DNA from: Morchella semilibera
Lineage: Eukaryota > Ascomycota > Pezizomycetes > Pezizales > Morchellaceae
Assembly: GCA_009192285.1 (NCBI GenBank)
Contig: WBVU01000005.1
Location: 2,374,731 to 2,438,730 of the forward strand
Length of the DNA stretch: 64,000 nucleotides
Direction: 5' to 3'
The stretch's first letter is position 1. Each line of letters starts with the position of its first letter. This document shows, in pieces, positions 33,232 through 59,108 of this stretch. A program made the translations under genes and the position numbers. The notes beneath the pieces were generated by a model, which had not been told where the DNA came from, ran no database searches, and worked only from the letters and a program-made list of their open reading frames with translations.

Positions 33232-35004
33232 TTAAAGCATAGCCTTTGGAAACTTTCTCATGGCCTGCCTAACCGCTAGATCACCCAAGATTTCCTCCGA
33301 ACCTCCAAGTATCGCATCAAACTTGTATGTTCTATTAAATGACTCGATGACTCTACCCATACCGCTCTTGGTGATACCCCTGCCCCCAAAGATTTGTACA
33401 CTTTCATCGGCAATCTCGTGGGCTGCTCTTGTTGCAAATGTTTTTAGCAACGCAATGGGGCCGGCAAGAGAGACAGATTGTTGAGCATAAGTCATGTTGC
33501 ACATTTGGAAAGTAAGGGATTCAAGCCATGACTGGGAGGACTCGACAAGGGCGATCATCTTGGCTAGTCTAGGGTATGTTAGTCATGAAGAGCGTAATAT
33601 GGGGAGAATACAGCATTTCTTACTTGTTGCGAATTACAGCTTGATCGATGAGACGTTTGTTGAAGACAGTGCGTTGATTTGTCCATTTTAGACATTCTTC
33701 TACAACGACACGACAACTGCGGATGACGGCACAGCACATGACCCACCGCTCGTGGTTGAAGTTGGACATTATGACCGGGAAGCCTTGGTGTTCCTTTCCT
33801 AGTAGGTGGTTTACCGGTACACGAACATTATCAAACGTGATAAATGCAGTTCCAGCAGCTGAGGAATACGATGTTTTAATTTGCTATCAAGCGTGTTAGT
33901 TGGTGGATTTAAGATTACCGCAGTTTCGATAGAGATGGATGACATACTTCTGTTTCGACGCCCTCGCCCCTTTCAATGAGTAAAACACTATAACCCTTCT
34001 CGGTCTTCACAGCCGTGGTGAAGTAATCCGCCCAGACACCGTTCGTAATCCACTTCTTTGTTCCATTTACGATATAGAACTTTCCGCAATCTGACTTTAC
34101 AGCCGTGGTCCTAATCCCAGCGACATCCGAGCCAGCAAAGGCCTCGGAAATGGCGAGGCAAATTGCCTTCTCACCCGAAAAACATTCGCGAGCAACCCTC
34201 TCACGGAGAGCAGGATCGTTACAGAAATTGAGAACGGGTGGAAGGCCGATTACCATACCACCGAGGAAGCCGTCGTTACAAGCTCGTCCGTGTGTTTTTG
34301 AGAGTTCCTGGGTGAGGACTAGTTCGTGGAAGTAATCAAACTCTTCTGGGGCGACTATACCACCCATGAGAGTGTGTCCTTTAAGGTGCTTCCCTGGCCC
34401 AAGCCGCATAGGATTCATTCCATTCTCCCTATATATTGTTAAGCTCTGCCAGGTAAACATAGACCTTTGTGTGCCTACCACATCATCTTGATAATCTCTT
34501 TGCTGGGCCTCTCTCCGGATTCTTCTATGCGAAGGGCCTCGGGACGGAGATGCTCATCTACAAAGATCCGGGCTGCCTTGCGAAGCTTTCTGTGGCTTTC
34601 TTTGTAGTATGGGCTACTAAACTCTGGTACGAGCCACTGAAGTTGAGTTAGCGATAACACCCGAAAAAGTTTCTGTTAATCTTAATACATGCCTGGGGTT
34701 CCGAATAAGGGACGGGTGACAAGTCTCCCGGTCCTATCGTCAATACTTGTGGTGTCTCTCCAGCGATAGTGCCCACGCATAACTTCTCATACTTTAATAG
34801 CACCTCATGGCGATGCATCTGGAAGAATTCGGCGGTAGCATCTTTTCCGGCTACTTGGAGAAGCACATGCGCACCACCTGGATGAGCGTCTGCGAAGGAG
34901 GTAAGGTCATAGACTTTTGAATCTATTATAATAAAGAGCGAGTCGGTAGAGTTGTTACTTGCGACCTCATCGCGAGTGAAAGTTGCGGGAGTAGCTGCGA
35001 CCAT
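33232..35004 (-). CDS. cytochrome b5-acyl-CoA dehydrogenase fusion
   Basis: Predicted 515-residue flavoprotein with an N-terminal haem domain. Minus-strand exons are 35004-34693, 34636-34479, 34428-33948, 33883-33624 and 33568-33232, and frame is kept throughout. Residues 1-95 are a cytochrome b5 fold; haem ligands are expected at His41 (in HPGG) and His64 (in FFQMHRH). Residues 105-515 are an acyl-CoA dehydrogenase: AISEAFAGSDVAG fits the family signature, KKWITNG is the flavin-contact strand, and the C-terminal GGSEE (492-496) occupies the position where related enzymes carry a catalytic or substrate-contacting acid. The fusion is known in fungi, and electron transfer from flavin to the haem is a reasonable inference. 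The C-terminal AML is not a good peroxisomal PTS1, so location is unclear. Intron 1 appears to start with GC rather than GT (34692-34691). A 13-nt C tract lies just upstream of the start on the coding strand. Confidence 0.92.
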
Positions 35005-36756: not shown

Positions 36757-36992
36757 GAAGATGGAATCACTACATGTATGGTGCGGTGCGTCTTAAAGGT
36801 GACATTCCGGTATATCAGTTGGAACAGTCTTGGCCACTCCGTTTGCTTGTGAACCAATAAGATCCTTAGATTCCAGCCATTTTGTGGCTGAAAACTAAAT
36901 CTTCGCCGCAGGTCTGTGATGTAGGGGTATAAATGGCTATAATACTGTTCCACTTCACCAGGTCTTGGCGCTTTTTACATACAAAAATAGGT

Positions 36993-37135
36993 AAATGGCA
37001 GCTCAAATAACTTTTCAACCAGATAAGTTATCAAAAATCTATGAGATCAGAATCTCTATCATACCTATGCCTACAATCTGATCTCATAGATTTTTGATAT
37101 CTTGTCTAGTTGAAAAGTTATTCGCGCTGCCATTT
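36993..37135. mobile_element. long palindromic element, 59-bp arms
   Basis: The left arm 36993-37051 and right arm 37077-37135 are reverse complements at about 54 of 59 positions, separated by a 25-bp loop. A short direct repeat of the type CTTGGCGC(C)TTTTTAYAT lies outside on both sides (about 36964-36981 and 37186-37203). The transcript would fold into a strong hairpin. Likely a foldback or MITE-type element; no transposase is present. Confidence 0.6.
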
Positions 37136-37551
37136 TTGTCACCTTTATCGTGCGCGCCACCATACCACGTCCCATACAAAGACTTGGCGCCTTTTTATAT
37201 GCTACATGTATCCAATAGCGGCCGTGTTTGGAAACGCCATAAAAAAGGCGAGTATGTGCTATACTACATGTAGGTAAAGCCAGAATTTCTATAACCGTAT
37301 TTAAGGGGATATCGTAGCGGTCCATCCCTTCTTTCGCGGTAGAGTAGAGTACCTCCGGCTGTATGCACAAGTACACGCGACTGTATACAGGGTACTCTGG
37401 AGTACTGGGGTAGTACTGTACCTACATGTACTCGTACTTCTCTGGCCCAAAACCAGGGCCATAGTGTATTTTTGTATGGCATGCAATATCAGTTGTGTTC
37501 AAAAACGTCAGAGAACTACGAGTATGTATGTACCTACAGCGAGAGATGGAG

Positions 37552-37630: not shown

Positions 37631-39471
37631 CGATGTACTTGTGACCTCCGATCTACATACAAATCACTATGCTCGATAGTGTCTCGATATAAGCTCCAAA
37701 ATCGATAATTAATGTAGGAACCCCAGGTTTCACGCCATCTGCCCTACTCTACATATTCTACATACCGAGTTTTCGTATCTCAAATAATGTGGCATAGCAA
37801 AATACTTACATTGTACTGATTGTTGATTAGGTTTAGGTTTGTGGCGGTCTGGGACAACAACAACGCGGCTAGCTAGGTTATATCTATGTAGCATGTGCCT
37901 TCATTCATCCTTAAGGATACAGCACATCACAAAACCCATCGGACGGCCCTTGCCAATTCAGATTTCTCTCGTATAACATCCGGCCAACAGTTGATGCCTT
38001 GAAACGTATTGTTTACTTACGGGGAAATTGATCGACCTGGACATCAGCTTCCGTGTTCTCTATCCCGCTGGCAAGATGTTATGTCGGCTGTTACACATTT
38101 TGTCTGCGTCCTATAAAAGTCTCTATATTGGACACATCGGATACCCTGTATCTTGGCATTATAGGGATATACAGAGGGGTTGGATGGTTGTTGTCAATAC
38201 ATGACATGATGCCCAGCCGGTGTTATCTATACGCACTTTTGGTGAGCAAAAGTCAAGCGCACAGATTTTCTGTATCATCACTAATTTCGATGGGCTCGCT
38301 AGGGCCGAGGATCGGTTTCATGTCAGCTGAAAGATATCTAGCGGATCAGTCCATAAGATTCTGGAATAGTTAAGCGTAGGCCGGTAGCGGACTGTACTTC
38401 GTGGAAGCCATATGCCTTTTGATGCTGGCAGCACATCGCCAAGAACTGTCATCTTTCTGCCAAGAGCGCTAATTTTTTTTTCAAAGCGTCTTATTTCCAG
38501 GCTCGTGTCGAATTTGTCTCACCTCGAGCCAAGTCTTACTTCCTGTTTATATTGATACATACTGAACCAAGAAAAATCGACATGTCGAAGTCCGTATAGT
38601 GTCAATTACATTGAGACGAACTTAAAAATACTTACTGACCTTATGTATGTAGGATCGGGGAGTTAAATCTCAAAGTGATGTTATAATCTACATGTAGTCA
38701 AGTAAGGGATAGCAGGGTTGCATTTCCTTGGCCTTAGTGGACCAGGGATATCATCTCTACAACGATTGGCTGAAAAGTAGTGATCAGCGTCAGTACTGTC
38801 CGTTTGTAGTAAGTTCGATCTCGCATCCTAGCCAATTTTTTTTTTTGAGTTTTGGCATAAGAATGTACTGCGCGTGTTACATTAATACACACGTGTCGAT
38901 TACAGTATAGGGTTGACAGGACTGCCTAGTCAGGCGTCTGGGGTAGGTAAATACAAGTAAGTTCAATAGTAGAGACTTGGTGTCAAAGTCCTTTGAGCGC
39001 CCACTGCCGTCAAAGTTTTACATGGGCAATGGTACTGTATCTCTCAGTGTGGTGCTAAGCTTTAAGTGGGGCGATCCCTGTCTGCATTGAAGGTCAGCGC
39101 AGGAATATGTTTTACTCTCATCACACGCTACCAGTCTGTTTGGCTAATGCATCCCTATCTGTCCCTGTTTCCGAATCACGTATCAACACATGTGCAGAAT
39201 TGGATGAGGGAAGAGGAGAGAGAAGTGCATGCAGGAGTTCAAAATTGCCTTTACCGCCGTAGTATTGGATATTTCAATAACTGGAACTCTGGAATTTCCT
39301 TGGTATTTAGCTATCTCCGGAGAGCTCCGAGATGCCTTTTAAAGAGGCGTGGCTAGCCCGGCATAGTTGAAAAGGAATTTGCCCGCCAAAGGAGCTATTT
39401 TGGACTTGAAGTTTCCCTGAAGAATATCTGCATTCAAAGTTTTCAGCAAACCCTTGGGTAGCCCATGAGGG

Positions 39472-42400
39472 ATGGACACACACACTATGGGTCGGACTCT
39501 CGTTGAGATAGGCTTCGACGGGTTTGAGGCAAAGGAGAAGACAACTTGGATACACAACAAAGGCGTTAGGGATGTTTTAGAGGAACATCTTGATCAGTAC
39601 CCACCATTCGATGTATGTTTTCGACGTGAATATTTTGTCTGAGCCTTTTCTAACATCGGCAACAAGAGACATATTCGCTCAAGACTCTTCTCGTATAGTA
39701 CACCCAAAGACATATAATACCTACTGATATTGCATTAGAACTAATTTTACATTAGATATGGCCCAGATCTTGAGCCTGACCAAAAACTTGTGCTTTCAAA
39801 AAGCTTTGATTTTCATGGATTTGGCTCTTTTCCTAAGATCTTCGACCACCTAAAACCTGGCTCGACCATTGATTATGAGACCGTCTTCAGAAAGCATAAC
39901 TGCCAGTGTTCAAGATGTTCTAAGGATATACCTACACCTTGCGGTAAGATTATTCTGTCACTACTTTGAGAGAATTTTCTAAATATCAATGAATAAGGAC
40001 GGGTGCTTTTGGATGTTACTTTGGGTTACTTCTTCCAGGAACCTACAAAGGCAGGTGAGTCTAAAAACCACAACACGCGGCAAACAGTTCTATCTTAAGT
40101 TATGATAAATGCCTACGGTGTTTGACGATATATATGGTGGTATAGGCTTAGATTGCGATGCCGAAAACACCCCTAGTACAGAGACAAGTTCCAAGACAAC
40201 AAGACCACTCAAGAGAGAGTTCTCGTTTGCTGGGGATAAAATTCACTTTCCAGGGTAAGTGGGCCAAAGCCTTTATTTTTCTAAGCCGAACTTCGTTAAC
40301 TTTGTCATGAAAAGATCCGGAGAATTCGGGATGGCCTTTATAAATCTACGAATGGTGTGTTATCAAGATTCGCAGGGAGTTGGGCGTCTAGAAACGTTCC
40401 GTTTTGGGCCCGCGGGGCGAACTGAGGTACATCATACGCCTATGTCGTATGTAATAGCGGAGATAAAGATGCTGGACACAAATTGGAATGAAATCATTCG
40501 TAAATGCAGGCAGATTTTGTCCACGCTGGTGAGTGGGAGAAGATACAGGCTTATTTATTTAGCGCCGTTGAGACTAAAAATCGAGTTGCTAATGATGATT
40601 TACAAAGAATCGGGGGGTGCTTGAGGATGACAAATTTCAAGATAGGAAGCTTGTTCGGAAAATGGTCAAATACGCCAAAACCTTTGAGCAGCTCCATCGT
40701 GTCTACCAACAGCAATCGGAGGCATTGCACGATATGATCTCAAATGTTTCAGAAAATGAGATTTGGTTCGAGATCAATCGCACCCCTAGTACAGAGTCCA
40801 TTCCTAGGAGTCAACAAGGAAATCAATCGCGAAAGCCCACGGATTTTACTGTAGCCGACTTATCCTCCCTCAATCCTCCCGCATCAGCTGAGCAACAGCA
40901 CCCACAACAACAAAGAAGAAAGCTTAAATATATTAGGGATATGGAAAAGGTTTTGGCTAAGTACGATAAGATCGGAAAAACCATCGAGGACCAACTCCTC
41001 AGGGAAACTCGAGATCTTATCGAAAGAGTAATTTATATAAAGCCCCCGTCTCACTTTCCTAAAATACTGACATATAATGTTTAGACACATAATATCATAT
41101 CCATCGACGAGGCATATAGATCAAGAGATATGAACGAAAGCGTCAAAAGATTGAGTTGGATAACCGTAGGTCTGAACTGCCCGTGTATTTGAATAAGGCT
41201 GACATACGTTAAAGTTTGTGTTTTTACCACTCCTGTTTGTTGCAGTAAGTTCTCACCTATGCTACATAAAGTTATCATCTTCGTGTACACTCACCATTTG
41301 ATAGAGTTTATTCGGAATGAATATCAACATACTAAGGGAAAACCCGAGCTGGTACTATTATCTGGGAATTGCGATACCGATGTTTTGTCTCATAATGATC
41401 GCAGTTGCTTTGTTAAAGCATTGGAAGAAGTTACGGAATCCCCAAACATGGCGAAGTCTTTTGATAAGTCGCGAGAAGATAAACAGAACAATGGTCTGGG
41501 TAGAGGCCACTCGGAAAAGGCTATTCGTCCGAGTGAAAGAGTATGACTTGGAGCAAGGATTTGCAAACGGGAGGGATGAACAATTGATAGCAGCAATTGA
41601 CGCCGATGACAACGAGTTAATAAAGGAGCTATTAGTTCGTAACAATAAAAGTACAAATATGCCGGTTAGGGCATTAGTACGAGGTCATCGAGAGGGCGCA
41701 GAACGGTTCGTCGAACACAGAGATAGTACAACACCACCAACAAATGGGCGTACCCCGTTGCAAGCAGCGGCGGCAAGAGGTAGTCTAGGAACTGTTAGCC
41801 GCTTGCTCGACCTTAGACAAGATATCAACGCACCGCCAGCCTACAATGACGGTCGAACAGCCCTGCAAGCGGCCGCCGAGAAAGGTCATATGAATGTTGT
41901 TGTGCTACTTATCCAGTACAGAGCCAATATAAATGCAGCAGCAGGGACGGTCGGAGGACGAACGGCTCTACAAGGAGCAGCGGGGGGAGGGCATTATGAG
42001 ATAGTTGATACCCTGCTTAATCATGGGGCGGATTGCAACATGGCTCCAGCTCAGTATAATGGACGGACAGCGTTACAGGCCGCAGCAGAAAATGGGCATA
42101 TTGATATTGTCAGGAGACTGATTCAATCAGGAGCTCGCATAAATGCAGCGCCGGGGAGGGATGGGGGGCGTACGGCCCTTCAGGCAGCAGCAGAAGGTGG
42201 AAATCTAGGGGTATTTAAGCTACTGTTAGACGCAGAAGCCGACTTCAATTCGCAGCCTGCTCACACCAACGGGCGCACAGCACTACAAGCAGCCGCGGGG
42301 AGGGGACACCTAGAGGTTGTCATTATACTCCTCAACCATGAAGTTGATTGCAACGAGAAACCAGCACCAGTGAACGGTCGTACATCATTGCAAGCGGCGG

Positions 42401-44581
42401 CCGAAGGAGGCCATATAAACGTTGTACAGCTTTTGCTAGAGTCCGGGGCCGATCCTAACGTTAGCCCCATCCGAAGAAAGAGGATGCACAGCACTACAGG
42501 CCGCAGCAGGAAATGGGCATAAGGAGATCGTTAAACTTCTGATTGATTATAAAGCCAATGTGACAGAGATGGCGGGCTCAGCAGCGCTACAAGCAGCCGC
42601 GGGTGGAGGTCACCACGAAATCGTCGAGACCTTGATCAATAACCAAGCCCCGATTAACTACTTGGGACATGGTAATGTTCTTCAAGCTGCAGCCCGCGGG
42701 GGGCATCAAAGCGTGGTTGAGCTGTTGATAAGCAGAGGGGCTGATACTAGAGCAACTTCAACTGGAATGGGTAGTGTGAATACAGCATTTATGGCCGCTA
42801 TAGAACAAGGGCATCGGGAGATTGTCAAGTTATTAATGGAAAAAAGCGCGAATACCTACGATCTGGCGGAAGCCCTTCTGTTAGCAGCCACGAAGAAACA
42901 AGAAGAAATTCTGGCCCTCTTGACAAAAGATGGAGCAGATATAGATCGCATCGGAGCAAACGGGCAAACTGCACTTCAAATGGCCGCCGGGAAAGCTCTG
43001 AAAGAAACAATGCAGATCCTGATACAAAAAGGAGCTAAGGTTAATGCAGCAGCCGCACCGGAGAAGGGCCGTACAGCACTCCAGGCAGCCGCAGAGGGTG
43101 GTCACAACGGGATAATTGAATTTTTAATTAGTGAAGGAGCTACTATCAGTGTTGCGAACGACTTGCCAGCAAGAAATGGGGGACGGACTGCTCTCCAGGC
43201 AGCAGTGGAGGGTGGAAGTATTGAGACGATTGAGCTACTAATCAGCAAGAAGGCCGAAATTAACGCCTCACCAGCACCGCAAAACGGCCTTACTGCATTA
43301 CAAATTGCTGCAGGGAGTGGAAAGACTAGACTGGTAATGCAGTTGATCAACGTGGGTGCAGACGTCAACGCGGCATCAGCGGTAGTCAATGGTCGGACAG
43401 CACTCCAGGCGGCCGCGGAAGGGGGAAACACGGCGACTGTTGAGCTATTGATTAGAGAGGGCGCGGAAGTAAACGAACTGCCTTCAGCAAATAACGGACG
43501 TACGGCATTACAGGCGGCTGTCCAAGGGGGCAATAAAGCGACTGTTGAACTATTGCTCAACAACGGTGCAAATGTGAATGCAGCGCCGGCAGATGAGAAC
43601 GGATTCTCTGCACTCCAGATCGCAGCTAAATATGGAGATCAGAAACTGGTAAAACTGTTAATCGACAAGAAAGCCAATGTAAACGCCGCACCAGCAGCAG
43701 CCTACGGACTCACAGCATTGCAAGCTAGTGCAAGAGAAGGGCATTTAACGATTGTCCAATTGCTGCTAGAAAAGGGGGCAGATCTCAATGCGCCACCAGC
43801 AGCAAAAGGAGGGTTAACAGCTCTGCAAGCTGCTGTAAGAGGCGGTCACATGGGTATTATAAAGCTCTTTATAGACAAAGGGGCTAACATAAACGCCGCG
43901 CCAGCAGAGATTGGGGGAAGAACAGCCCTACAGGTTGCTTCAGAAAAGGGAGACATGGAGATTTTTCAGTTCCTACTGGAAAATGGAGCGGATGTGAACG
44001 CCCCGCCAGCAGCAAATGATGGGCAGACAGCATTGACAGCAAGCGTTGGAGGAGGCCATATGGATATCACCCAAATATTACTAGACATAAAAGCCAATGT
44101 CAACACGCCTTCGACAACGAACCACCGTACAGCTCTCCAGATTGCAAGAGAAAGAGGGTTTGAGAATATTGCACAGCTTCTTATCGAAAGAGGGGCCATC
44201 GTCGAAACAATACCTATAGTAGTCGATGAGTACAATCCGAAGGAGATAATTGAGGAGACTGAAGGTCTTCCACCGGCCCAGCAGATAGAGAGGGGTCAGG
44301 TATTGGGAGGGTCACCAGATGGTAGGCGACATCGGTTAGGCAGGAGAGTAATTATGGGAATGAGGCGAGAGAAATCGACAGGGGCAACTGGAGATACACA
44401 AGGGGATCCCGAGGCTCTAAGTCCACAGAAAAGGGCATCGACAACAGGGAGCGCGTTGGGTATTAAGCAGCCGGAGATGACAGAACCTGATGATTCCCGC
44501 GGCCAGAGAGGGAGCATATCGATGGCTGGGGGTCTACGGCGAGATCCATCGAGAACGTCCAGTAAAGTGGGGAAATCATGA
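39472..44581 (+). CDS. CorA-like / ankyrin-repeat membrane protein A (frameshifted)
   Basis: Exons: 39472-39612, 39667-39692, 39756-39943, 39998-40054, 40146-40254, 40315-40528, 40608-41027, 41085-41165, 41215-41244 and 41305 onward. Residues 1-412 form an N-terminal domain of unknown fold with Cys105, Cys107, Cys110 and Cys118 in a CxCxxC...C pattern. A CorA-type module follows: helix 1 FVFLPLLFVA, SLFGMN (GMN at 426-428), and helix 2 around YYYLGIAIPMFCLIM. The rest is an ankyrin array, about nine repeats before and 17 after a frame break, with consensus GRTALQAAAEGGH, then a basic, Ser-rich tail. As written, the frame ends at 42522 (about 827 residues). A 1-nt excess in GTTA at 42460-42463 shifts it; past that point, repeats continue perfectly to 44581 (about 1,513 residues in all). 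The start ATG aligns with that of paralogue B. CorA proteins form pentameric Mg2+ channels; the function here is inference. It could be intact with a sequencing error, or a recent pseudogene. Confidence 0.85.
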
Positions 44582-45445
44582 CAATAGCTATCTCATGCAA
44601 GTAAAACTTGATATCCCATCGTAGAGGGATTATTTGCGCTAATGATATATATACTATGAATATAGGCACCTAGATGTGGACCCTCATTAATGTAAATATG
44701 GAAGGAACTAATATTGTGTTGGCATGGTTAACGAAGTATATGTTTTTTTTGTTTATTTTCTGGGAGGTTGTTTGTTGATAGCGGTATTATGGGAGGATTT
44801 GATCAGGCTCTCATCGATATGGCCGTCGAGACACATACATGTAGGTATGGCTGGTTGATGGGGGAAGAGGTTTGGCTGGGCCGGGTTGCCTTTCTGCCGA
44901 TTTCACATACGTGTAATACGTTTAGATGCTTTTCCTATCTCTATAGAGGATTACATTCTCGTAATATATTTCATTTGTGTAAATACCTATCTGGTTTAAT
45001 TGCGCAGCTACGGAGGAAAGGGTATTCCAGGAATAAAAACACTTTCACATCACCCATATGTAGCGTTGATAATTTGTTGTCAGCAATAATGATTGTCATG
45101 ATATATAATTCCACCCATTACAATACTTTTTTATTGACTGGGTTAGTACTGTTTCGAAAAGTTGTTGATGGGAATGCAATGTGAATTACTATCTACTACA
45201 TACATAGGTACTAGCAATACTGTATTAAACGCCGGAATTAAGGAGCCCACAACATACAAGCAAGTAAACTTGATGAAACAACGATACATGTATTTATGGG
45301 TGCATGTAAAGTATGTAGTTTTTAACTGCATGTATATCAGAAACCTGCTCTTATCAAAGCCTAAAAATGAAGTTTTAAAAAATATATAACTACATGTAGC
45401 TATCCGTACCGATTCAGTCTTAGACTGAACACTACATTACAGTAC

Positions 45446-45602
45446 AAAAAGAGGGGTGGGATCACTACGGTATTCTCGTTGATGCGCTAGCAATGCGGTA
45501 AGAATACGGTATCCGTACAGTACTCTTCCTCTAATGCCGATTTAATTCGGTATTTGTCACTAAATGCCGTAGTCCTATGGTAGTGATTTCACCCCATTTT
45601 TT
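45446..45602. mobile_element. 157-bp inverted-repeat element (MITE-like)
   Basis: The ends 45446-45468 and 45580-45602 are inverted repeats at about 19 of 23 positions, both containing a GATCACTAC/ATCACTAC core next to a G- or C-rich block. The interior carries further small palindromes built on GGTAT and TGCCG. There is no coding capacity and no clear target duplication. Confidence 0.5.
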
Positions 45603-46320
45603 CATACTATAATATACCGTATTGTGCACAATACCTAAGTAATGCCGTTTGTTTGGAAAACCAGTACTATTAAAGGAACAATACTCACTTCAAGCTTTTT
45701 TATATATATATATATATATATCCCCGCAGATAACATTAACGTATATACTTACGTATTCCTTGTACTACATGTATGTGTATTATATTACCTGGAATACAAT
45801 ATCACTATAGCCACATGTATATATACATGTATATATACAGAGTTCGTGGGAATATATATTCCCTGTACATGTAGTATGTATTTTAAATTGTCTGTATCCA
45901 CTATATTTCGGAATATACGATCTGGGAGGACGCAGAAGTACTAAAGATATTGACTATACTAGAGTTATGCATTACTCGCACGTTAATTAAACCTTATGAG
46001 CCCGTTATTACCAAGAATTCTTAGGACTTAATCAATACGTGAGTATTTCACAGCGATTAGAGACTTTGCGCAAATGGAGCCAGCTCCATTTCCCGGTAAC
46101 CTGATTGATGCCGATCCCATAGCCTGCCAATCAGATAATCGAAATATAGAACTGGCTGTATTTTACCGACAGAACGATCTTTAACCGTGGGACAAAGTGC
46201 ACCATGCATACTGGGGCTGTGCACTCTTTACGTGACACGTTACACAGCCAACTACATGTAGAGTAGTCAAACCAAACAGAACAATGAAACATGTCAGTCT
46301 CAGAATGCATCCGGTCAGGT

Positions 46321-46344
46321 CAGTCAGTCAGTCAGTCAGTCAGT
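46321..46344. repeat. (CAGT)6 microsatellite
   Basis: Six perfect tandem CAGT units, preceded by a GGTCAGGT remnant. Intergenic. Confidence 0.95.
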
Positions 46345-47161
46345 AGTCACTGTCAGCCCCACAAAACATAACATTGGCTCTCCCTCGCTAATCTGAGGGT
46401 TTACATACATGTATGTACTTTAGTCTAGAGTTGAGCTTGGTACACTGATGTATGTGTAAAAGTAAACTCTATTTTGAACCCCTTACCCGGAGAACCGAAT
46501 CGTGTCTACCTACAAGTACTCTAAGTACTCCATCCACTCTACTCTTTTCTACTTTAATAGAGTATACCTGTACCTACGCCCCGAGATGACGTCTTGACCG
46601 CTTCTTTTTTCTTTTTCCCCTAGAAATGAATAGGCACATGCGGAGGCGCCTCCGAGTGATTGATAAGAGCATTATGTACCACTGCAATGCCTGTCAGTGG
46701 ACCATGGACCGTCTATCTGATTGTGGGATCAGCCTGTGAGGCCGCCCGGGAGAAAAAAAATAAAACAAAAAATACATAAATCGAAGCCTGGTTTTAGACG
46801 GCCGTGGATGCCTAATTTAGTGTCTCGTCACAAAGCGTGGCCTCACAGCTCGGTATTTAACTTGTCGGTCACTTTCTAATCTCGCACTTTGGTTCGAAAA
46901 CCCCTACAGGCACAGTCGACCCATCCGGATTGTGAGAAGCAACAAAAAAAAAAAAGAAAGGAAACGATGAGCATGCACGCGAGAAGGTGGGGTTTGTTAT
47001 CAGAGGTGGATGTTGAATACCCATGTATCAAAGCTCATCGATCCCCCCCCATCTTAAATCGAGGGTACCTCCAATAACATATCACCACCGCTCTAGTGGT
47101 CCTACGAACATAGTCATAGACAATTCGACATCCTAGAGGATCATACCGACCCTTTTGACCC

Positions 47162-50100
47162 ATGGATCAACAGACTCAAGTCGAGGCAGAGTTCTACGAC
47201 AGCAAAGGAAAGTATTCGTATTGGGTGCCTAAAGCTGGATCCCGAAATGCTTTGCGGGAACACCTCGTGGAGAACCCGCCCTTTGCTGTACGCTCTCCAT
47301 CTTCATGTATGGGAGGTGTCGCGAAAACTGGCTAACACGCAATAGAATCATATCCGATCCCGACTCTTTTCGTGCTGCTCCCGTATTGTTGTCTTGCTTT
47401 TACCGAGCTAATTTGTCCCACGCAGATATGGCCCCAAAATTGAAGCCAAAAACGAATCCACCTTGTTTACGGAATTTAAGCTGCGCGGATTTCATGACAA
47501 TCTAGGGATATTCAGTCACTTGCACTCCTCTGTGACGGACTATGAAACCAGGATCCGATCGATCAAATGTCGTTGTCCCGACTGCGAAAAGGGTAAAGAT
47601 TGCGGTGGGTTTTCCTTTTTTCCCCTTTTTGTTCACCTGGTATCTGAAAGTGGCAAGGAAGCTAAAGAGTCGCAGGCTATGAAGTGCTTGATGTGAGCTT
47701 GGGGATCTGTAATATCCAGATAGAGAGTGAGGGAAGTACAAAATGTAAGGCTTCTGGGTATTCTCAAGCACTTACGAGTTATTAATTTGAGACGTCTCAT
47801 CTATATAGCACGTTGGGGAAAGCCACCTAAACGACAAAACACCACAAATGAATTTCGGTACTCTGGCGACCTTGTGGCATTTCCTGGGACTATGCTCGAG
47901 TAAGCTCTCTCTTCTCTTTACGTTCCAAAGAATGGTGATTCACATACAAGCTAGCTCGACAACCCTCGGAATGTCTCTGGTTCGGATCCGGATGTTCCGC
48001 TATCGAGACGCGGGCGGGATAGGTCACCTTGAAACCTTTCGGTTTGGTCCTAGACAGCAGATCCGCCAGACTCCAATTGCATATGTGATTGCGGAGGTGC
48101 AACTGCTCAATAAGGCTTGGAGGGAGGTTATCAAGAGGTGTAAGCAAGACTTGTTTGCATTAGTAAGCCCCCCCCCCCCCCCCCACCTGCTAAGAGCTAT
48201 CATTTCTTATCTAACAGATAAGAATGTAAGCATTTCCTCAGATAGCTTATCCACCGATCGACAATTCCTCCGCAAGCTCGTGAAATATGCTCAAACATGG
48301 GACCAATTCCACCGCATCCAGCAGCAACAACTCAGCGAACTCAAGTACTTTGAGGAAAGAACGGCCGAGAACCGCTCATGGTTCTGTTTGGATCAGCTGG
48401 CAGACGAGGGCTCTTCCGCTATGAAGAATCTTCCCCGGCTAGAGGTTAGACCTGGCGCTGTCGGGACATTAATATTAGGTGAGGGGCCAATAACATCGAG
48501 CGTCGCATCAAGTGTTGTTGGTATTGAGGCCGTTGCGGGGCCTAAGACCGTATTTAAAGGTGGCGAGGAAATCAGTGGGGTTTTGAAAGAACTGGATGAT
48601 ATTGGAAGGACTATTGAGGCTCAGTTGGTCAAAGAGACAAGGAAGCTGATTGAGAGGGTGAGTACCTACTCGACATACAAATGAGGTCAATGCTAACATG
48701 GGCGTATGACTTAGACGCACAATATAATTTCAATCGATGAGGCGTACAGATCGAGGGATCAAAATGAAAGTATCAAAAGATTGAGCTGGATTACTGTATG
48801 TCCTATCTATTCCGGTATCGTTGTAGGCTTAGAGCTCTAACTTAACGAAGTTCATATTCCTGCCCTTACTTTTTGTCTCGGTAGGTTCCCTATCTGGTTT
48901 GATTCTAGTCAAGTACTCACGATTATTTAGAGTCTATTTGGAATGAATGTAGACACCCTCAAGAATGATCCCTCATGGACCTATTACCTGGCCTTCTCCT
49001 TCCCCATGTTCTGTCTTATTATGGCCTCTTTGGTCGTCTGGAAGAAGTGGGAGTCATTAAGGAACTTCCTTCAAGAATTCAAGCAGTCCAAAGATCACTG
49101 GTTCCTCCGGCACCGCCGCCCGAAAGAAGCTATCATAGACCCCGAAAAAGCCCTCGTTAACCCGGAGTCCGAGCTCCTCGTTGCTGCATGTGAGAAGGGA
49201 AACCTTGAAGAGGTGCGGGACCTAGTACGGCAAGGTGTCGGCGTCAATACACCCGTCAGGAATGGACTCACAGCAATACAGTCTGCATCAAAAGGTGGTC
49301 ACTCGGATGTTGTAGAACGGCTAATAAAATACGGAGCCGATGTCAATGCCCCGCCGCCCATGATCAACGGTGGACTCACGGCACTGCAGTGGGCGGCTGG
49401 AGAGGGTCACTTGGGGGTTGTCAAGCTTCTTCTAGAGCACGATGCTGATATCAATGCCGCCCCCGCGTATGATGGAGGGCGTACTGCGCTACAAGCTGCT
49501 GCAGGCGGCGGTCACTTGGAGATTGTGCAACTATTACTTGAAAAGGGGGCTAACATCAATGCCGAGCCTTCACCTCAGGGAGGACGAACCGCCTTACAGG
49601 CTGCAGTGGAGTGTGGGGATGTTGCTGTTTTCGACCTGTTGTTCAATTTTAGGGGTGATTTGGAGCAGAACCATATCCAGCGATTTTCTAGACGGCTCAC
49701 TTCGAGGGCATCTTGGCACATTAGAGGGACAGCGAAGAAATCTGCTCTTGGGGTAGATGTGAACGCAGAGCCGGCGGGCGTAGATGGACGTACGGCGCTC
49801 CAGGCAGCAGCGGAAGGAGGGCATGTAGAAATCGTGGAGCGTCTACTTCTGCGTGGAGCGGACGTCAATAAACCTGCGGCTAATGAGGGAGGAAGTACAG
49901 CTTTAGAGGCAGCTGCAGGGCGAGGATACAGAGACATTGTTGAACTCCTAATTAGCTATGGCGCTAGAGTATCAGGCGCAGAAGGATGTGTTGCCTTGAA
50001 GGCAGCGGCGTCTGCTGGACGCCTGGAAATCATCGAGCTTTTGATCAGCCATCAAGGTGAAGTCAATCATCCTGACCTTGGATGTGTATTACAGGCCGCG

Positions 50101-50673
50101 GCCTGTGGCGGACACTATATGGTTGCCGAGTATCTACTCAACATTGGGGCGGAGGTGAACTCGGCCGCTTCGGGTCGGGTGGGCACAGCATTGGCAGCAG
50201 CTGCAACGCATGGACATGAAGACATCGTCGGGCTCTTGATCAGAAGCGGGGCACACATCGATCAAGCAGGCCTAGACGGCCACACTCCACTCCAAGCCGC
50301 CATAGAAAACGGTCAAGACCAGATCACAGAGCTCTTGGTACGCAGAGGCGCAGATGTGAATAAAGGGCATGGCAGCACCCCGCTTCAGACCGCCGCCGGA
50401 CTGGGCCAGTACCATATTGTCGAAATGTTGATCCGGAATAGGGCCGAGGTTAATGCACCACCAGCAGCGAACGGGTTTACGGCTTTGCAGGCGTCGGCGG
50501 CTGGCGCGCATCGGCAGGTTGTTGGTGTGTTGCTGGGTAGTGGGGCGGTTGTAGATGGGGCGACGTTGCATTTGGTGCGTGTGGGTGCGGAGAAGGCGCC
50601 GCCGAGGTTGAAGAGGGAGTATGATGATATTATGGGGATGCTGGAGAGGGCGGACTGGAAGGGGTATAGATGA
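47162..50673 (+). CDS. CorA-like / ankyrin-repeat membrane protein B
   Basis: Intact paralogue of gene A, 995 residues as modelled. Exons: 47162-47287, 47346-47371, 47426-47604, 47676-47744, 47809-47899, 47955-48162, 48223-48657, 48715-48795, 48851-48880 and 48931-50673. Introns fall at the same places and phases as in A, including exons of 26 nt (NHIRSRLF) and 30 nt (FIFLPLLFVS). The N-terminal domain has Cys99, Cys101, Cys104 and Cys110, then ETFRFGP and QTPIAYVIAEVQLLN blocks shared with A. The membrane module: helix 1 at about 403-417, GMN at 419-421, helix 2 at about 433-452. About 13 ankyrin repeats fill the C-terminus, predicted cytosolic as in CorA topology. A 102-bp in-frame stretch, 49655-49756, interrupts repeat 5; it begins GT and ends AG, and removing it restores a perfect repeat, so it may be an intron (then 961 residues). 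Intron 6 holds a long C tract and is in frame too. Confidence 0.88.
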
Positions 50674-51639
50674 AGGGGATGTCTGGGTTATACGGTTACT
50701 TGTATTATTAATGGGTTTATGTTATTGGGTGGGCGGCTATCAATGGGTCGTTTGATAACGGGGGTGTTAACGATAGGGCAGGTGATGTTCATTAATGACG
50801 ATGTGTTTATTATTTGTCGGGACGAAATTAAATACGTTATAATTTTTTTCTTTTAACAGAATAGTGAAAGATATACGTATGAGAGGGTGTCAACGACATT
50901 TAGTTACAGCGATCATGCACTGGTAACACATGCAGTTATTTATACCCCGATATGTCCCGACTAGTTACCGATCCCGGAAAAGATGATGGCCTAGCGGTGG
51001 TACCAGGGTGTTGACTGGACGAAGAGCATCCACACACCTATATCTACTCTGAAATAGCCTTGTGTACAAATTAACTTCCGTGTGGCTATGAGACCACCGA
51101 ATGTGCACCACTTGCTGATACTCTGGGTACTCCTAGTGTACTCCTGGTTAAATTGCTTACGAGATATTTAGCTCTTGTACTCCCCACTGCTTTGATCCCT
51201 GCAGAAATGGCGGTGGGGTTAGTGCGAGTTGAGAGAGAGACGAGTGATAGTCCATGATTATGCGAGGTCAATGATAATCTCTCTGGTTTTCCTCGCCATG
51301 CGTAGATAAGGATAAGATACATAGTCATATTGGGTAGGATATATATATATATATATTTTAGAGAAGAGAAAGTATGAGAGGAACAGAGAAAGGAAAAGAA
51401 AGGAAAGGAGAAAATATAAGAAGAAGAAGAAGAAGAAGAAGAGAGAGGCTTTGTTAGAGTCGTCGATGTCGATATGCGGAAGAATGGTGAAGTGGTTATG
51501 AGAGGGATGGGGGCTCGGTCGGGCGAGCGCAGGCGTGGAGGTGCGGTGCGGGGGTGATCGGGAGGGAGAAAAAAGTGGGGAAAGAATAACCAGATGAAGA
51601 AGAGCTGAGCTTGAAGGGGAGTCTGGGGGAGGCCCGGCG
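50674..51639. other. intergenic between convergent gene B and the minus-strand ankyrin pseudogene
   Basis: Holds the 3' flank of gene B, (AT)n at about 51341-51356, and A/G-rich DNA including (AAG)n at 51418-51441. A minus-strand open frame runs through 51086-51640 but is low-complexity there and has no ankyrin features, so I treat it as read-through of the pseudogene. Confidence 0.55.
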
Positions 51640-53345
51640 TGGGAAAAGGTTGTGTATGTCCTTTGGCAGAGGCGTGATGTAGTAAGGTCTGACCTAAGTA
51701 ATCCTGAGTACTCATTCAGGCACGATTCCGTACTAATAGCAAGACGACTGTGGCGTGGCCTGACATGGATGCTAGAATTAACGGTGTTCTCTTCTTGGGA
51801 TCAAGACTTTCAATATTCGCCTTCTCGTCTAGAAGCCTTCGGACAAGTAGTACCCTTCCGTTCGCTGCTGCTTCTAACAATTGTGCGTTTATTGTTTGAA
51901 CGGCTGAGTCGTTTGGATGGTTGTGAAGATTTTTATCTTTCCATGCGTTCAGGATTCTTTCTGATGTTCCTCCCAGGACGCTAGTCATACATGAAATTAG
52001 TGTGCGTGAGCTAGTTCAGCGTCAACTTTATCGTATTTGGCCCTGTCGCAAACCACGCGCACAGAGAAGGCGCTTTCGCAAGATAAAGCAATTCTGTCGT
52101 CGACTTTATTGATATATTCATTCGACTCTGATATATTTGTACATGCCCGACGGAGCTCTAAGTATATTTGCCCAGCCTTCATCACTCGTTGTTTTCTTCG
52201 AAAGCATTGGCGGCGGCCTCCGCACAGTGAAAGAGCCATAGGAGCACCCATTCAGCTTGCTCATACCCTCCACTTTCTAAATGAGACTTTGAAGCCTTAG
52301 CAAAGATAGTGAAGAATTCTGTGTCATCAAGCCTAGGAAGCTTCCCGAATTTCGACAACATAGGTACAATGCTCATATACGCTTCCTCGGTATTTGCCAA
52401 CCCTGTTAGCTCGATTTCTTTGACAAGCCCGGTCAACACAGTGGTGCTCATTCCAAATGCCCTTTTTTCGCCCTTATTCCCTCTCGGAGAGATATCTTCG
52501 CTTCGATATTGATATGTGCGGATATGCCGGAAACAAACTCCGCAAGAATTGTTTGTCCACATATACCTTCGAGGTTAGTATCCGAAATGATGCCGAGAAG
52601 TGGATTTTCCATGCTCATTAAGGTGAGGTTTTGAGGGATGCCAATGACATGACCATATTTTCCAACGCCTTCGTTGAATGTTGTAATATATATGTCATTT
52701 TGACAAAGCCAGACCCACGTGTTATCCAGCGCTCGTAGTTTATCTTTCCTGCAGTATCACACTGCCCAAATATACGCAGAAACCGACTCCTCTCCGGATC
52801 ATTTTGTTCCCCATTTCGTGGACTATTCACCTCCTGGGGCTCGATTGCAGTTTTTCTCGCTGAACTTCGGTGTCCTTAAAATGCAACATCCATAACCCGA
52901 ACACGGCCTCAATCTCGCTTTTGGAGGCTCTCCAAGGGCCCTAAGGGCCACCGAGTAATCTAACTCTTTCCATATTCAAGGTTATCTCCTCTAGGTGAAG
53001 TGTGTTTGAGCTGTCGGCAACCTCAACTGCAATATTCTATTTAAAGGACCCTCGAGTCGACCAATATCCTTTGTCTAAAATAACCTCTTCGTTTGAAAAT
53101 AAGAAATTCATAACCGCTTCTAGGGCCTTTTTTGAGCCATTGGCTTGACCATCGAGACAGTGTACCTAGTCGACGTCTTGCTGTAGCCGTGTTTATAGTT
53201 AAGGTACTGCCAGTTGAAGCAGGCTTATCAATACCCATGTAACAACATTTCATTGCTTGCAGCCAACTATATTCCTTGCCATCCAGTCTAACTCGTAACC
53301 CGCCTTAAGTTTTATGCTTTCAGGTTTATGGATGAGATTTCTGCG
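51640..53345 (-). pseudogene. decayed ankyrin-domain gene (third ankyrin locus)
   Basis: Read on the minus strand, coherent protein blocks follow one another but in shifting frames. Order: RVRLDGKEYSWLQAMKCCY; VHCLDGQANGSKKALEAVMN; DKGYW; NIAVEVADSS; SEIEAVFGLWMLHFKDTE; TWVWLCQNDIYITTFNEG; MSMENPLLGI; TVLTGLVKEIELTGLANTEE; GGYEQAEWVLLWLFHCAEAA; VMKAGQIYLELRRAC; then ankyrin repeats (AQLLEAAANGRVLLVRRLLD, GQTLLHHASAKGH). Lesions include two in-frame TAG codons in the 5' half, a frameshift at a six-T tract (plus strand 52463-52468), another at about 52182-52187, and a TGA at 51716-51718 inside the repeats. The N-terminal domain is not CorA-like and I do not recognise its family. It lies tail-to-tail with gene B. 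Some frame changes could be unrecognised introns, but in-frame stops within conserved blocks argue for a dead gene. Missing upstream exons are possible beyond 53345. Confidence 0.75.
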
Positions 53346-56300
53346 GACCCACGCCTTAAGGTAGTCATGATAATAGCCAGCTGGGAAACTGTACTGACCA
53401 ACTTACCGGTCGGGGTTGAGCAGAAATGTATAAGGAAATCGCAGATCAGTCTAACACCTACAAACAGTGATATTAGCATCGGACAGTTGCAAGATAGTGA
53501 GAGTTAGTCCCGTACCTTTTGAGCAGCAGATAAAGGTGGGGACGAGGAAATTTTGACTCTGAAGCTTCGAAGTCTAGGCTGTTGAATGTCGAAATACATG
53601 GAAGATTTCTGCGTAATATGATACGCGTGTGCAAACCACTACGCAGGACCTATGCAGAACCTTTGAGAAATACTCCACCAATACGCAAACGCATATATAT
53701 ATACGTCCCAAGCCCCTAAAACACACCTCCGGATCTTGAGCAGTATGGGGCAGCCACAGACCGCAAGTTCATAGGGCATTGGTTAAGAAAGATGAGAGCA
53801 ACCTTTCAATTACCCTCAGTCTACTTGGGATTGGCCGTTGGTTGGGATATATGGCTCGAGAAGCTATGGAGGGCAGGTGTGCAAACTTCAGCGTTTGCAG
53901 CCAATCAGTCTATAGAAATTGGGAGATCTACTCCCATAATTGTACTACGGGGGTCAGTAGGTGTCTACAGACTTACCCCTAGCTACACCCGTAGTACTAG
54001 TGCCTAGCCTAACGGTCTAATTCCCATACAAAAAAAATTCCTCTGAGGTTTACACACCCACCCCCATGCCTTCTCGCGCCATATGTTACTTCAAGCTCAC
54101 ATCCCTATGTAATTGTGGTATCCACTTGATTTCTTCCCCACCTAAGGGCTATATATATATTGCGTACAACATCTACATCAACTAATCAACTAAATGTATT
54201 ATTTACGGTTTCGAGTCTAGTTAAATAAATAAAATAATTAAGTCTCACTCAAGAGCGTAAACGAACCAGCGATTTGGCCAACAACCTCTAGCTCTGAATC
54301 TAAATATTTGGTTCTTGGAGATAGTTTTTTGGTGTGAAAATCCCTCAAAATTCAAAAACAGGATTAGCCAAATCACTCTCATGCACGTCTTAATCGGTGA
54401 AATTTTATTAGCGATCCAGAATTCTAACGTCACTTCAACTCTTATTACTATCGATAATTATATAAAAGCTACTCTAATATGATCTGTTGACGAACAGGGT
54501 TCTCTGGCTAATAGAAATCATTAGCACATATGGACTACTATTAATCTATTCGTGAACGACTGTTGCTAAATTTATAAAAGCTTATTTTACCGATTCCTAT
54601 TTACTGCTAGATCCACAACCTTCCATTCCAACAGATATATGCTATGGCTGAGTGGAAGATGCATCTTGTAAACACGCTATTCGTTTATAAACCGACCTCT
54701 AGGGTAAAATCTGAGTATGCATGTGTAAGGCGAGGATTTTGTGAACTATCCAGGGTTTATGATGATCTAGCCTACGCCTGAGTTACATACTCACACGCTA
54801 GCAAAACAACCCTACAATTGGGGCTTGCATAAGAAACGTCAAGATTGGGGCCAGCCTCCATTTCTATAACAAAAACCCTCCCCCAATTCTTACAGTAAAT
54901 AGGATTTTGGTGTTGAGTCCTTGGAATGTACCCTGTATGCTTTTTTTTTTCTTACGGAAAGGTTTTCCTTATGTATAATGAGGATTTCCTAGAGGTGCAT
55001 GTTCTACATACTCTACCCTACCTCGAGAGACAATAGAGTATGTAACTCCTACACGCGCGATACCGTAGCAGGTAAACCAGGGTCTGTACCCATACACTAA
55101 AAAACACCGCGCGCTCCACACATAGACATGCCCTCCCCCTGCACCAAAGCTTTCTGACTGCTGATGGAGGTTTGACCGTAAAAAAAGCTAGGTCGGGTGC
55201 TTATACATTCCTAATCTCTAAGATTCTTGCACATAGCGGGGTGTATGTGCGATCAAAAGACTCTATATGACCGAGCTATGAGTTGAGCTAGAAGATTTTG
55301 CTATATAGCAGGTTGAAGGAAGGGACTTGGAGCGGGTGATGGATCTCATAACAGCGCGACGGTGGTGGTAAGGAAAAGGTTTTGCGATTGATGGTGGTAG
55401 AAAGAGCGCCCTAAGTCTGTTAGGTGAATTGAGTGAGAGAAAGTGAATGAGAGATAGTTGATCGTGAGTGAAGTGTCGCTAGGTCAGCCGCGCCGACTTG
55501 CGCACATAGTAAGATCTAGTGAACCCAAGAAACCAGACCAAAATCGGGCAAACCGCGAACCGCAAACCCCATATCCAACCGCCGGAAGAACCCGAGAAAC
55601 CACCCGAGTGTGGACCTGATTAGAGCGTGTTGGCCACACTCATATTTTCAAATTTTGAGCCCAAATTTCGAGCTCTTGGCCCGCTATCCACACCAAAAAC
55701 CAGTCGCCAAGAACTAAATATTTAGACTCAGAAGTTGTTGGTCAATACGCCTTATTCCCTGCCGAGATAGAGCTTTGGCTTGTGGACTTCGGATATGGAT
55801 CGAGAAATTGTACTGAGTGAGCGAAGATGAGTATGTGCGCGGTAGTTTCCATGACATCCTCATTCCTGTTGCTTATGACAACGTAGGATAGTTAGTTTGG
55901 CGTTCATCCACACCCCCCCGAGGAGTTGAACCTTTCCCAAAGGCTTTTTGAACGGGTTAGTCGGTAATTTCGAGGCTGGGGTTATGGTGTAGGGGGAACG
56001 CCTACTCTATCTACATGTGTACTTACTAGTTAAAGTAGCACAACTGATGTCCGCAAGGATCATAAAAATAAAGGGAAAAAAAGAAGGGCTGAACGAGACC
56101 TTCGATCGTGGCCCCTCAAAATCCACTCAATTCAGCCGGCTGCAATCGGAATGGAAAGGAATTCGATTCTCACACATAGAGGCATTGACACGTACAAAGG
56201 ATTTTGTGTTCATAGGCCCGACGCCTGCTGAGTCTTAAATAGATTTCGCTAACTTTTACCTCTTCCTTCCCGATGGCTTTTTTTTGGGGGAGAGGGGGGT

Positions 56301-57657: not shown

Positions 57658-59108
57658 ATGAAGTTGATTCCACTTGTGTGTAGTTTTCTTTTCGCGGTAG
57701 CTTTCTCACTACCGTCACACTCTCGCCGGGGCACATGCGCCAACCCCCCCCTACGCAAAGAATGGTTTGTTCAAATAATCCTTGCGTGGTAACATCAAAC
57801 TAACACCCCCTTTTTTTTTAAAAAAAAAAAGGCGTACCTTGTCCGACCAGGAAAAGTCGAATTACATTGAGGCTGTGAAGTGTATGCAAGAACTACCAGC
57901 AATCAGTACCCCGAACGTTCCAGGCGCTGTGTCGAGATACGATGACTTTGTCGGGCTACACGTTAGAGACGCAAACACTATCCATTTCGTGGTATGTTTT
58001 CCCTCCTTACTTTAATTTGAGTCATCCTGAAATATTTACTAACGGACACAGGGACACACGCTCCCTTGGTATGATTGAGTTGATTTCTTGAGTAGTGAGA
58101 CTTTATATCTGACTTTTACTAGGCACAGATACTTTGTCGCAGCCTTTGAAGTTGCAATGATCAAAGAATGCAACTACACTGGTGGTCAGCCGTAAGTAAA
58201 TCTGAAGATATATTCACCATATTAAGACAAGAAACTAATTACAACAATTTCTTTAGGTACTGGGACTACACACTTGACAGTGCTAGGGAAGAGGACTTCC
58301 TCGCATCCCCCATCTTTGACCCCGGCCCACTTGGTTTCGGCGGAAACGGTCCATGGATTGCCGAAAGTATCGATCCCTTCCCACCCGCTCCCGGACGCAC
58401 GGGTGGAGGATGCGTTCAAGACGGAGCTTTCAAGGACATGGTTGTGCGCCTGGGACCGAGAGAGAACATCCAATTGAATGAGAGATGCTTGACGAGAGAC
58501 TTCAGCCCTTGGATCGCCACTACGTTTTTGTCCGCCCAGTTGATAAAAGATACCATGGAGCAGACTACCTTTGGATGGTTTGATCTCAAGGCACAAGGCA
58601 AGATTCAGAATGTCTATACATACAGATATCATGGTGGTGGGCATCTCGCAATTGGTGGAGAACTTGGAACGGTATGAATCAATTACTGGGTTTTAGGGGT
58701 TATGGATGGCTCGCTGACTTTTTCCTCTTTTGCTACTTAAAGATGGCGGATGTTTGGGGCAGTGCTGGTGGTGAGTTGCACATCTTCTTATCGCCCCCCC
58801 AATTATAAAAGTCACTAACCATACCTAATTCCACAGACCCACTATTTTACCTTCACCACACAAATATGGATCGTCTCTGGTGGGAATGGCAGAAGAAAGA
58901 TCTCCCCTATAGGTTGTACGATATCTCCAACCCTATCTACCCATTCGACTTCCCTTACGGAAACGCAACCTCAAGGGGTAATGTTACTTTGGAGTTTGAG
59001 ATCCCGATGCGTGAGATCGCAGTAACCAAGACAATCGGGGATTTGATGGACATCATGGGAGAAACACTCTGCTATGACTACGAATCAGCACCGATGGGGG
59101 GCTATTAG
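57658..59108 (+). CDS. short secreted tyrosinase
   Basis: Predicted 355-residue type-3 copper enzyme oxidising phenols to quinones. Exons: 57658-57764, 57832-57991, 58052-58068, 58123-58191, 58257-58671, 58743-58770 and 58837-59108. Residues 1-18 are a hydrophobic signal peptide. The CuA ligands should be His79, His87 and His96 (in IHFVGHTLPWHRYF). The CuB ligands should be His243 and His247 (HGGGH) plus one His of the pair at 272-273 in FYLHHTNMDRLWWEW. PYWDYT and FGGNGP are typical of the short fungal class. It lacks the C-terminal lid domain of classical tyrosinases (500-600 residues), so it should not need proteolytic activation. The 17-nt exon 3 splits the Trp codon of the CuA motif. It may act in melanin or secondary metabolism; no companion biosynthetic genes lie in the window. 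The start is supported by the signal peptide and the TATA box. Confidence 0.93.

Follow-up and report, generated by a model that had tools for sequence, protein, structure and literature searches.

CorA channels are self-regulated Mg2+ uptake pores. In a contig of the morel Morchella semilibera, two neighbouring genes (A and B) appear to extend such a pore module by a long ankyrin array, which raises the questions of whether module and array belong to one protein, how unusual the combination is and what an extended pore of this kind might do. We addressed them in the window, i.e. the whole stretch of 64,000 nucleotides that was analysed (C21:2374731-2438730), and in the own genome of this fungus (56.8 Mb in 23 contigs), to which all genomic comparisons refer.

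Pore module and ankyrin array share one exon in each of two tandem genes

The initial annotation had placed here two tandem genes in which a CorA module with a GMN motif is fused, behind helix 2, to a long ankyrin array. This description held for both genes, as did its boundaries, with 39472 as the first position of exon 1 in A and 50673 as the last position of B. A (39472 onward) and B (47162-50673) lie in tandem on the forward strand and comprise ten exons apiece, the splice sites being placed with the help of the homology between the two (Table 1). The series of intron phases is identical in both genes (0,2,1,1,2,0,0,0,0), exon 2 measures 26 nt in each, and every intron in the models is of the form GT...AG, but the sites were picked on that basis. 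One 31-nt intron in B was rejected and replaced by an intron ending at 47954, with exon 6 running from 47955. The modelled coding sequences of A and B contain no interrupting stop except at the frame-change site of A.

Table 1. Coordinates of genes A and B, of single features within and near them, and of related loci (positions in the window unless a contig is named)
Feature	Position	Strand	Evidence
Gene A exons 1-9	39472-39612, 39667-39692, 39756-39943, 39998-40054, 40146-40254, 40315-40528, 40608-41027, 41085-41165, 41215-41244	+	splice model by homology with B
Gene A exon 3, four cysteines common to A and B (residues 105, 107, 110, 118)	39756..39943	+	invariant columns of the A-B alignment
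Gene A exon 10, first frame	41305..42519	+	single open frame, 405 codons; Pfam Ank and CorA
Gene A exon 10, GMN loop; TM2	41314-41322; ~41359-41415	+	
Gene A array, second frame	42440..44578	+	713 codons, 16 ankyrin units (42482-44221), then a tail without ankyrin hits
Gene A array, frame overlap	42440..42522	+	reading frame of the array changes here
Gene B exons 1-9	47162-47287, 47346-47371, 47426-47604, 47676-47744, 47809-47899, 47955-48162, 48223-48657, 48715-48795, 48851-48880	+	splice model
Gene B exon 10	48931..50673	+	single open frame, 580 codons, ends at stop; Pfam; AlphaFold model
Gene B exon 10, GMN loop; TM2	48940-48948; ~48985-49041	+	
Gene B array, non-ankyrin insert of 32 residues (242-273 of exon 10)	49654..49749	+	model pLDDT below 50
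Ankyrin frame beyond B, 99 codons	51719-52015	-	Ank_2 32.3 bits (cut-off 27.3)
Ankyrin-first CorA loci (six)	C21:183260, C15:36258, C15:65120, C21:1176213, C1:5512536, C12:1484242		ankyrin 1.9-3.3 kb upstream of CorA, same strand

While exons 1-9 of A (39472..41244) encode the N-terminal region, the stalk helix and most of TM1, the GMN loop, TM2 and the array occupy a single intron-free exon in both genes, and the fusion of CorA to ankyrin therefore does not depend on how the splice sites were guessed. At the sequence level, this shared exon also speaks against separate CorA and ankyrin transcripts. The exon-10 frames of A (405 codons) and B (580 codons) were rejected as chance open frames, since the longest frame among 200 shuffles of positions 38400-51000 in two-base blocks was 243 codons. 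An ankyrin-first reading, under which the array of A would belong to B across a gap of 2.6 kb, was rejected too, because B has its own ATG exon homologous to exon 1 of A and because TM2 and array share an exon in each gene.

The CorA assignment itself was supported by PF01544, which matched A at residues 363-460 with 62.9 bits and B at residues 365-459 (in the numbering of a B model that was 8 residues too long) with 49.6 bits, both above the cut-off of 27; in either case the match covers the final third of the profile. In both proteins the SLFGMN motif is flanked by two hydrophobic helices, with hydropathy peaks at 411-429 and 441-459 in A and at 404-422 and 434-452 in B, and a further, weaker hydrophobic stretch lies close to the end of the B array (945-963). 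Sequence searches of solved structures retrieved CorA chains with residues 180-467 of A alone (best E 2.2e-4), with a profile of A and B (E 1.8e-5) and with a profile of eight sequences (E 3.7e-9), the matches being confined to the stalk end, TM1, GMN and TM2. Four unrelated chains (three I-BAR and one plant NLR) that appeared at E 0.06-0.08 with the eight-sequence profile were taken as chance. GMN is invariant in all eight aligned modules (G247, M248, N249).

The spliced parts of A and B through the end of TM2 share 45% identity. By region of A, identity is 44% (1-173), 45% (174-290), 12% (291-350), 51% (351-385), 87% over the stalk end, TM1 and GMN (386-430) and 51% over TM2 (431-467). The 87% of the pore region against the 12% of the linker looks like the pattern of a constrained pore.

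The N-terminal region is novel only in part

In front of the pore module the initial annotation had seen a novel domain of about 400 residues. Residues 1-303 of A and 1-296 of B gave no Pfam match over cut-off, and sequence profiles compared with solved CorA did not detect the CorA funnel fold in the N-terminal region of A or B. On the other hand, an HMM built from the six ankyrin-first modules described below scored 153 bits in A (214-461) and 131 bits in B (208-461, first B numbering). Thus from about residue 200 onward part of the supposedly novel domain is the CorA soluble region shared with six paralogues. The segment 1-173 matched no Pfam family over cut-off and no solved structure, and among the places in the own genome listed at E up to 0.01 there were only A and B themselves. 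The four cysteines that the two proteins share within it may form a metal site.

The arrays are long, diverged and, in A, split over two frames

Ankyrin units were counted by the ANK HMM, which gave 12 units in B (49264-50571) and 23 in A, of which 7 lie in the first frame (41746-42474) and 16 in the second. The earlier claim of long arrays was thus correct, while its numbers (~26 and 13) were not, and the array of A is not a single open one. The frame change in A could reflect a genuine break, an error of assembly or an intron that escaped recognition; a single-frame A product stops after 7 repeats.

Exon 10 of B, modelled with AlphaFold from a three-row alignment (mean pLDDT 77.4, pTM 0.60), has two helices spanning residues 16-38 (TM2) and 40-62, a flexible linker of low confidence at 51-75, and paired helices of an ankyrin solenoid from residue ~78 to ~540. 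The non-ankyrin insert that interrupts this solenoid is modelled with low confidence and could be a disordered loop or an unspliced intron. Between repeat units, mean and maximal nucleotide identity were 0.55/0.66 and 0.51/0.67 in A and 0.48/0.63 in B, and the best self identity over 105 residues was 57% and 56% in A and 40% in B, values consistent with old and diverged arrays.

The frame change in A and the 32-residue insert in B are the observations that favour a decaying pair, in which A would be a pseudogene owing to its frame change and neither gene would yield a functional protein. Such decay agrees poorly with coding sequences that are otherwise free of stops, with a second frame of A that stays open for 713 codons after the frame change, with introns that are all GT-AG (as chosen) and with pore residues that are strongly kept, and we regard it as very unlikely.

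Surroundings of the two genes

Beyond B, and convergent with it, lies a further ankyrin frame without a CorA match (51719-52015), which could be another ankyrin gene or a remnant and would fit a region where ankyrin sequence could be picked up; equally, it illustrates how frequent ankyrin sequence is in this genome. Several dispersed repeats were also observed: i) a 175-bp repeat between A and B (45438-45611) that has at least 43 matching pieces in the genome, the best at 97% identity and with paired contigs each contributing to the count, and that might be a small mobile element of the non-autonomous kind; ii) a repeat of ~390 bp upstream of A (36771-37166), which other contigs carry in two copies of 97% and many of 79-86% identity and which in part matches itself inverted; and iii) two short repeats downstream of B (53849-54087 and 55621-55754). 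In a long-DNA search of 39472-50673 the 175-bp repeat was the only sequence among the matches listed, from which even the self match was absent, and this search therefore has no bearing on uniqueness.

Neighbouring frames match a GH43 beta-xylosidase (2203-3348), an acyl-CoA dehydrogenase (33918-34553, reverse strand) and a tyrosinase (58150-58674), and a 918-codon open frame at 21121-23874 (reverse strand) had no Pfam match at E up to 0.01. None of the nine neighbouring frames tested matched an NLR or HET family. Three contig pairs (C21/C22, C12/C13 and C9/C10) gave the same matches at nearly the same positions and may represent haplotypes or overlapping assembly. C21 and C22 agree to ~1.5 Mb, beyond which the matches listed differ, and the part of C21 covered by the window has no C22 match among those listed.

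Six relatives carry the array in front of the pore

CorA-like places in the genome were collected by family and protein searches, hits within one gene being merged and the near-identical contig pairs C12/C13 and C21/C22 being counted once. Of the 17 places, A and B included, ankyrin follows CorA in two and precedes it in six; seven others showed no ankyrin match in the flanking DNA searched (at least 1.5 kb on each side), and the remaining two (C1:5825804 and C6:139075) lie outside the DNA examined for ankyrin. A CorA-like gene in the region of C12:1448688 (L018/L081) scored 51.6 bits and carries GFFGMN. Its frame continues long past TM2 with non-ankyrin sequence, making it another candidate for a C-terminally extended CorA.

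The six ankyrin-first paralogues share one order: array frame, soluble stretch, stalk of the type LV|EF(N/S)LVSI, S/TWIT, F(I/V)FLPL, FGMN and TM2, with the open frame stopping within about 35 residues past TM2 (a later exon is possible). All six modules exceed the PF01544 cut-off, and in five of them an intron follows straight after SWIT at TM1, as in A and B. Introns separate array and module at these loci; given their order, strand and spacing, which recur at all six, we infer that the two form one gene at each. By chance, same-strand ankyrin within 3.5 kb upstream would be expected at ~0.16 of 17 CorA loci, an estimate that assumes 300 ankyrin loci in 57 Mb and that clustering would raise. 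At E up to 1e-6 the genome holds 190 ankyrin-matching stretches, the own window and paired contigs included.

In trees of 13 modules A and B were joined at 99-100, while their tie to the ankyrin-first modules C15b and C1 had a support of only 40 and 58. The reversed order may have been derived from ankyrin-first genes or may stem from a separate fusion. A and B appear to represent a branch, with reversed domain order, of a broader family of fungal ankyrin-CorA proteins, in which the pairing of ankyrin with CorA recurs at six more loci with the array upstream of a homologous module.

Array homogeneity and a possible role in recognition

Arrays of highly similar repeats are a frequent, though not a defining, feature of fungal NLRs: in the accessible text of Dyrka et al., "high internal conservation" stands for 85% over 100 residues and is enriched in fungal NLRs, and the inter-repeat loop is named as part of the binding interface (PMC4986451). 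The ankyrin-CorA genes might by analogy encode a recognition-coupled channel, NLR-like without a nucleotide-binding domain, in which the array would be a variable sensor of non-self or infection and the CorA pore the output. Two of the six ankyrin-first arrays exceed that threshold, with a best self identity over 105 residues of 87% (C21a) and 89% (C1), and their repeat units reach a mean and maximal nucleotide identity of 0.70/0.93 and 0.68/0.97. The eight most variable positions of C21a (23, 24, 29, 30, 32-35) fall mostly in 29-35 (six of eight), chiefly the inter-repeat loop. Moreover, in the available text on vegetative incompatibility in Morchella importuna, mimpvic32, a gene for a PF01544 protein with 8 introns, is one of two candidates (PMC8940278).

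Against these observations stand the diverged arrays of A and B, which miss the threshold, and those of the other four paralogues, which also fall below it (best self identity 38-64%, mean unit identity 0.42-0.52). The variable positions of C1 (14, 18, 19, 22, 26, 29, 33, 34) are scattered over helices and loop, so that, of the two homogenised arrays, C21a is the one with a clear loop pattern; the choice of positions was made post hoc and from a single strain, and a dN/dS split in C21a and C1, drawn from the same data, is descriptive only. Neither A nor B has a NACHT or NB-ARC domain (none listed at E up to 1 in Pfam, where HMMER filters drop most weak matches). Furthermore, mimpvic32 is no more than a candidate in a paper whose main text does not contain "ankyrin" (PMC8940278), and a survey of effector domains in fungal NLRs does not mention "CorA" in its main text (PMC9815663). 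A sensory role of this kind draws on the paralogues and not on A and B; its probability is lower than that of a regulated channel, and we consider it rather unlikely. A broader proposal would take the whole family as fungal recognition receptors without a nucleotide-binding switch, in which variable ankyrin solenoids sit on a CorA-type pore in two opposite orders, a bound cue causes the pore to open or to assemble, and the resulting ion flux signals alarm or death during allorecognition or infection, with A and B as the reversed, slowly evolving branch. This, too, we hold to be unlikely.

A regulated divalent-cation channel as the best explanation

The explanation that we favour, to which we give about an even chance of being right, is that A and B constitute an old pair of tandem genes encoding subunits of the two-TM-GxN (CorA) family and forming an array-regulated divalent-cation channel, drawn from a fungal CorA subfamily that has acquired ankyrin arrays before or after the pore. 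Each protein runs from the soluble N-terminal region through stalk helix, TM1, GMN loop and TM2 to the ankyrin solenoid. In CorA both termini are cytosolic and five subunits form the pore; a pentamer of such subunits would thus present five ankyrin arms at the inner face of the membrane, whichever the order of the domains. The arms might bind a cytosolic partner, whose binding or release would shift the stalk and TM2 and so alter a divalent-cation flux of the Mg2+ type; alternatively, partner binding would place the channel at one site. That the array gates the pore is what we infer. Counting against a regulated channel are i) the abundance of ankyrin in this genome, which would allow for an array that serves as a passive tether; ii) the mere 7 repeats of a single-frame A product; and iii) a match to solved CorA that is restricted to the surroundings of stalk end, TM1 and TM2.

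If the array acted as a tether to membrane or cytoskeleton only, A and B would be housekeeping channels for the uptake of Mg2+ or another divalent cation. The GMN filter, kept in eight of eight modules, agrees with this, as does the ability of the fungal CorA proteins MoAlr2 and MoMnr2 to rescue a yeast alr1 alr2 mutant that is defective in Mg2+ uptake, as given in the accessible part of PMC4945025; in addition, seven other CorA-like loci show no array in the DNA searched. Yet eight ankyrin-CorA loci with arrays very unequal in length and homogeneity are unlike one housekeeping gene, and array-less CorA-type loci are also present in the genome. We therefore think pure housekeeping rather improbable as well.

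Comparison with known systems

The initial annotation had called the fusion itself unusual. This applies to the order, with ankyrin after the pore, and not to the pairing, for which the six ankyrin-first loci and a CorA protein with ankyrin repeats from Fusarium oxysporum MRL8996 (array order not stated in the text available; PMC12345182) provide further cases. In the available portions of the respective papers, CorA and ankyrin families are reported separately as expanded or candidate families in Scedosporium and Endocarpon (PMC10694956, PMC3897900), and "ankyrin" is absent from the main text of a review covering animal, plant and fungal Mg2+ transport proteins (PMC13022745). No description of ankyrin repeats behind a CorA pore was found in the literature searched, chiefly openly accessible papers, and within this scope the ankyrin-CorA family appears little studied. 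If our explanation is true, fungi gate or place divalent-cation channels via protein recognition; with mimpvic32 mapped in Morchella, the family would moreover supply a concrete gene set for asking whether fungi use ion channels as receptors of non-self.

Compared with solved CorA/2-TM-GxN channels (PF01544; chains 2iub, 4eeb, 5jrw), A and B share the stalk end, TM1, the F-G-M-N loop and TM2, but differ by a long N-terminal region in which no funnel was detected and by an ankyrin array that continues for several hundred residues past TM2, whereas the solved chains stop a few residues after the match. With the six ankyrin-first loci they share a homologous CorA module of ~250 residues and an adjoining array, which stands before CorA there and after it in A and B. 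Like fungal NLRs with ankyrin (e.g., PNP_UDP/NACHT/ANK), they carry a C-terminal array behind an output module, but here the output module is a pore and the arrays are not homogenised. In TRPA and TRPN channels a cytosolic ankyrin solenoid is likewise joined to a cation pore, which has six helices and is preceded by the ankyrin repeats. No six-helix ion-transport Pfam family matched A or B, in which a presumably cytosolic solenoid adjoins a putative cation pore of two main hydrophobic helices.
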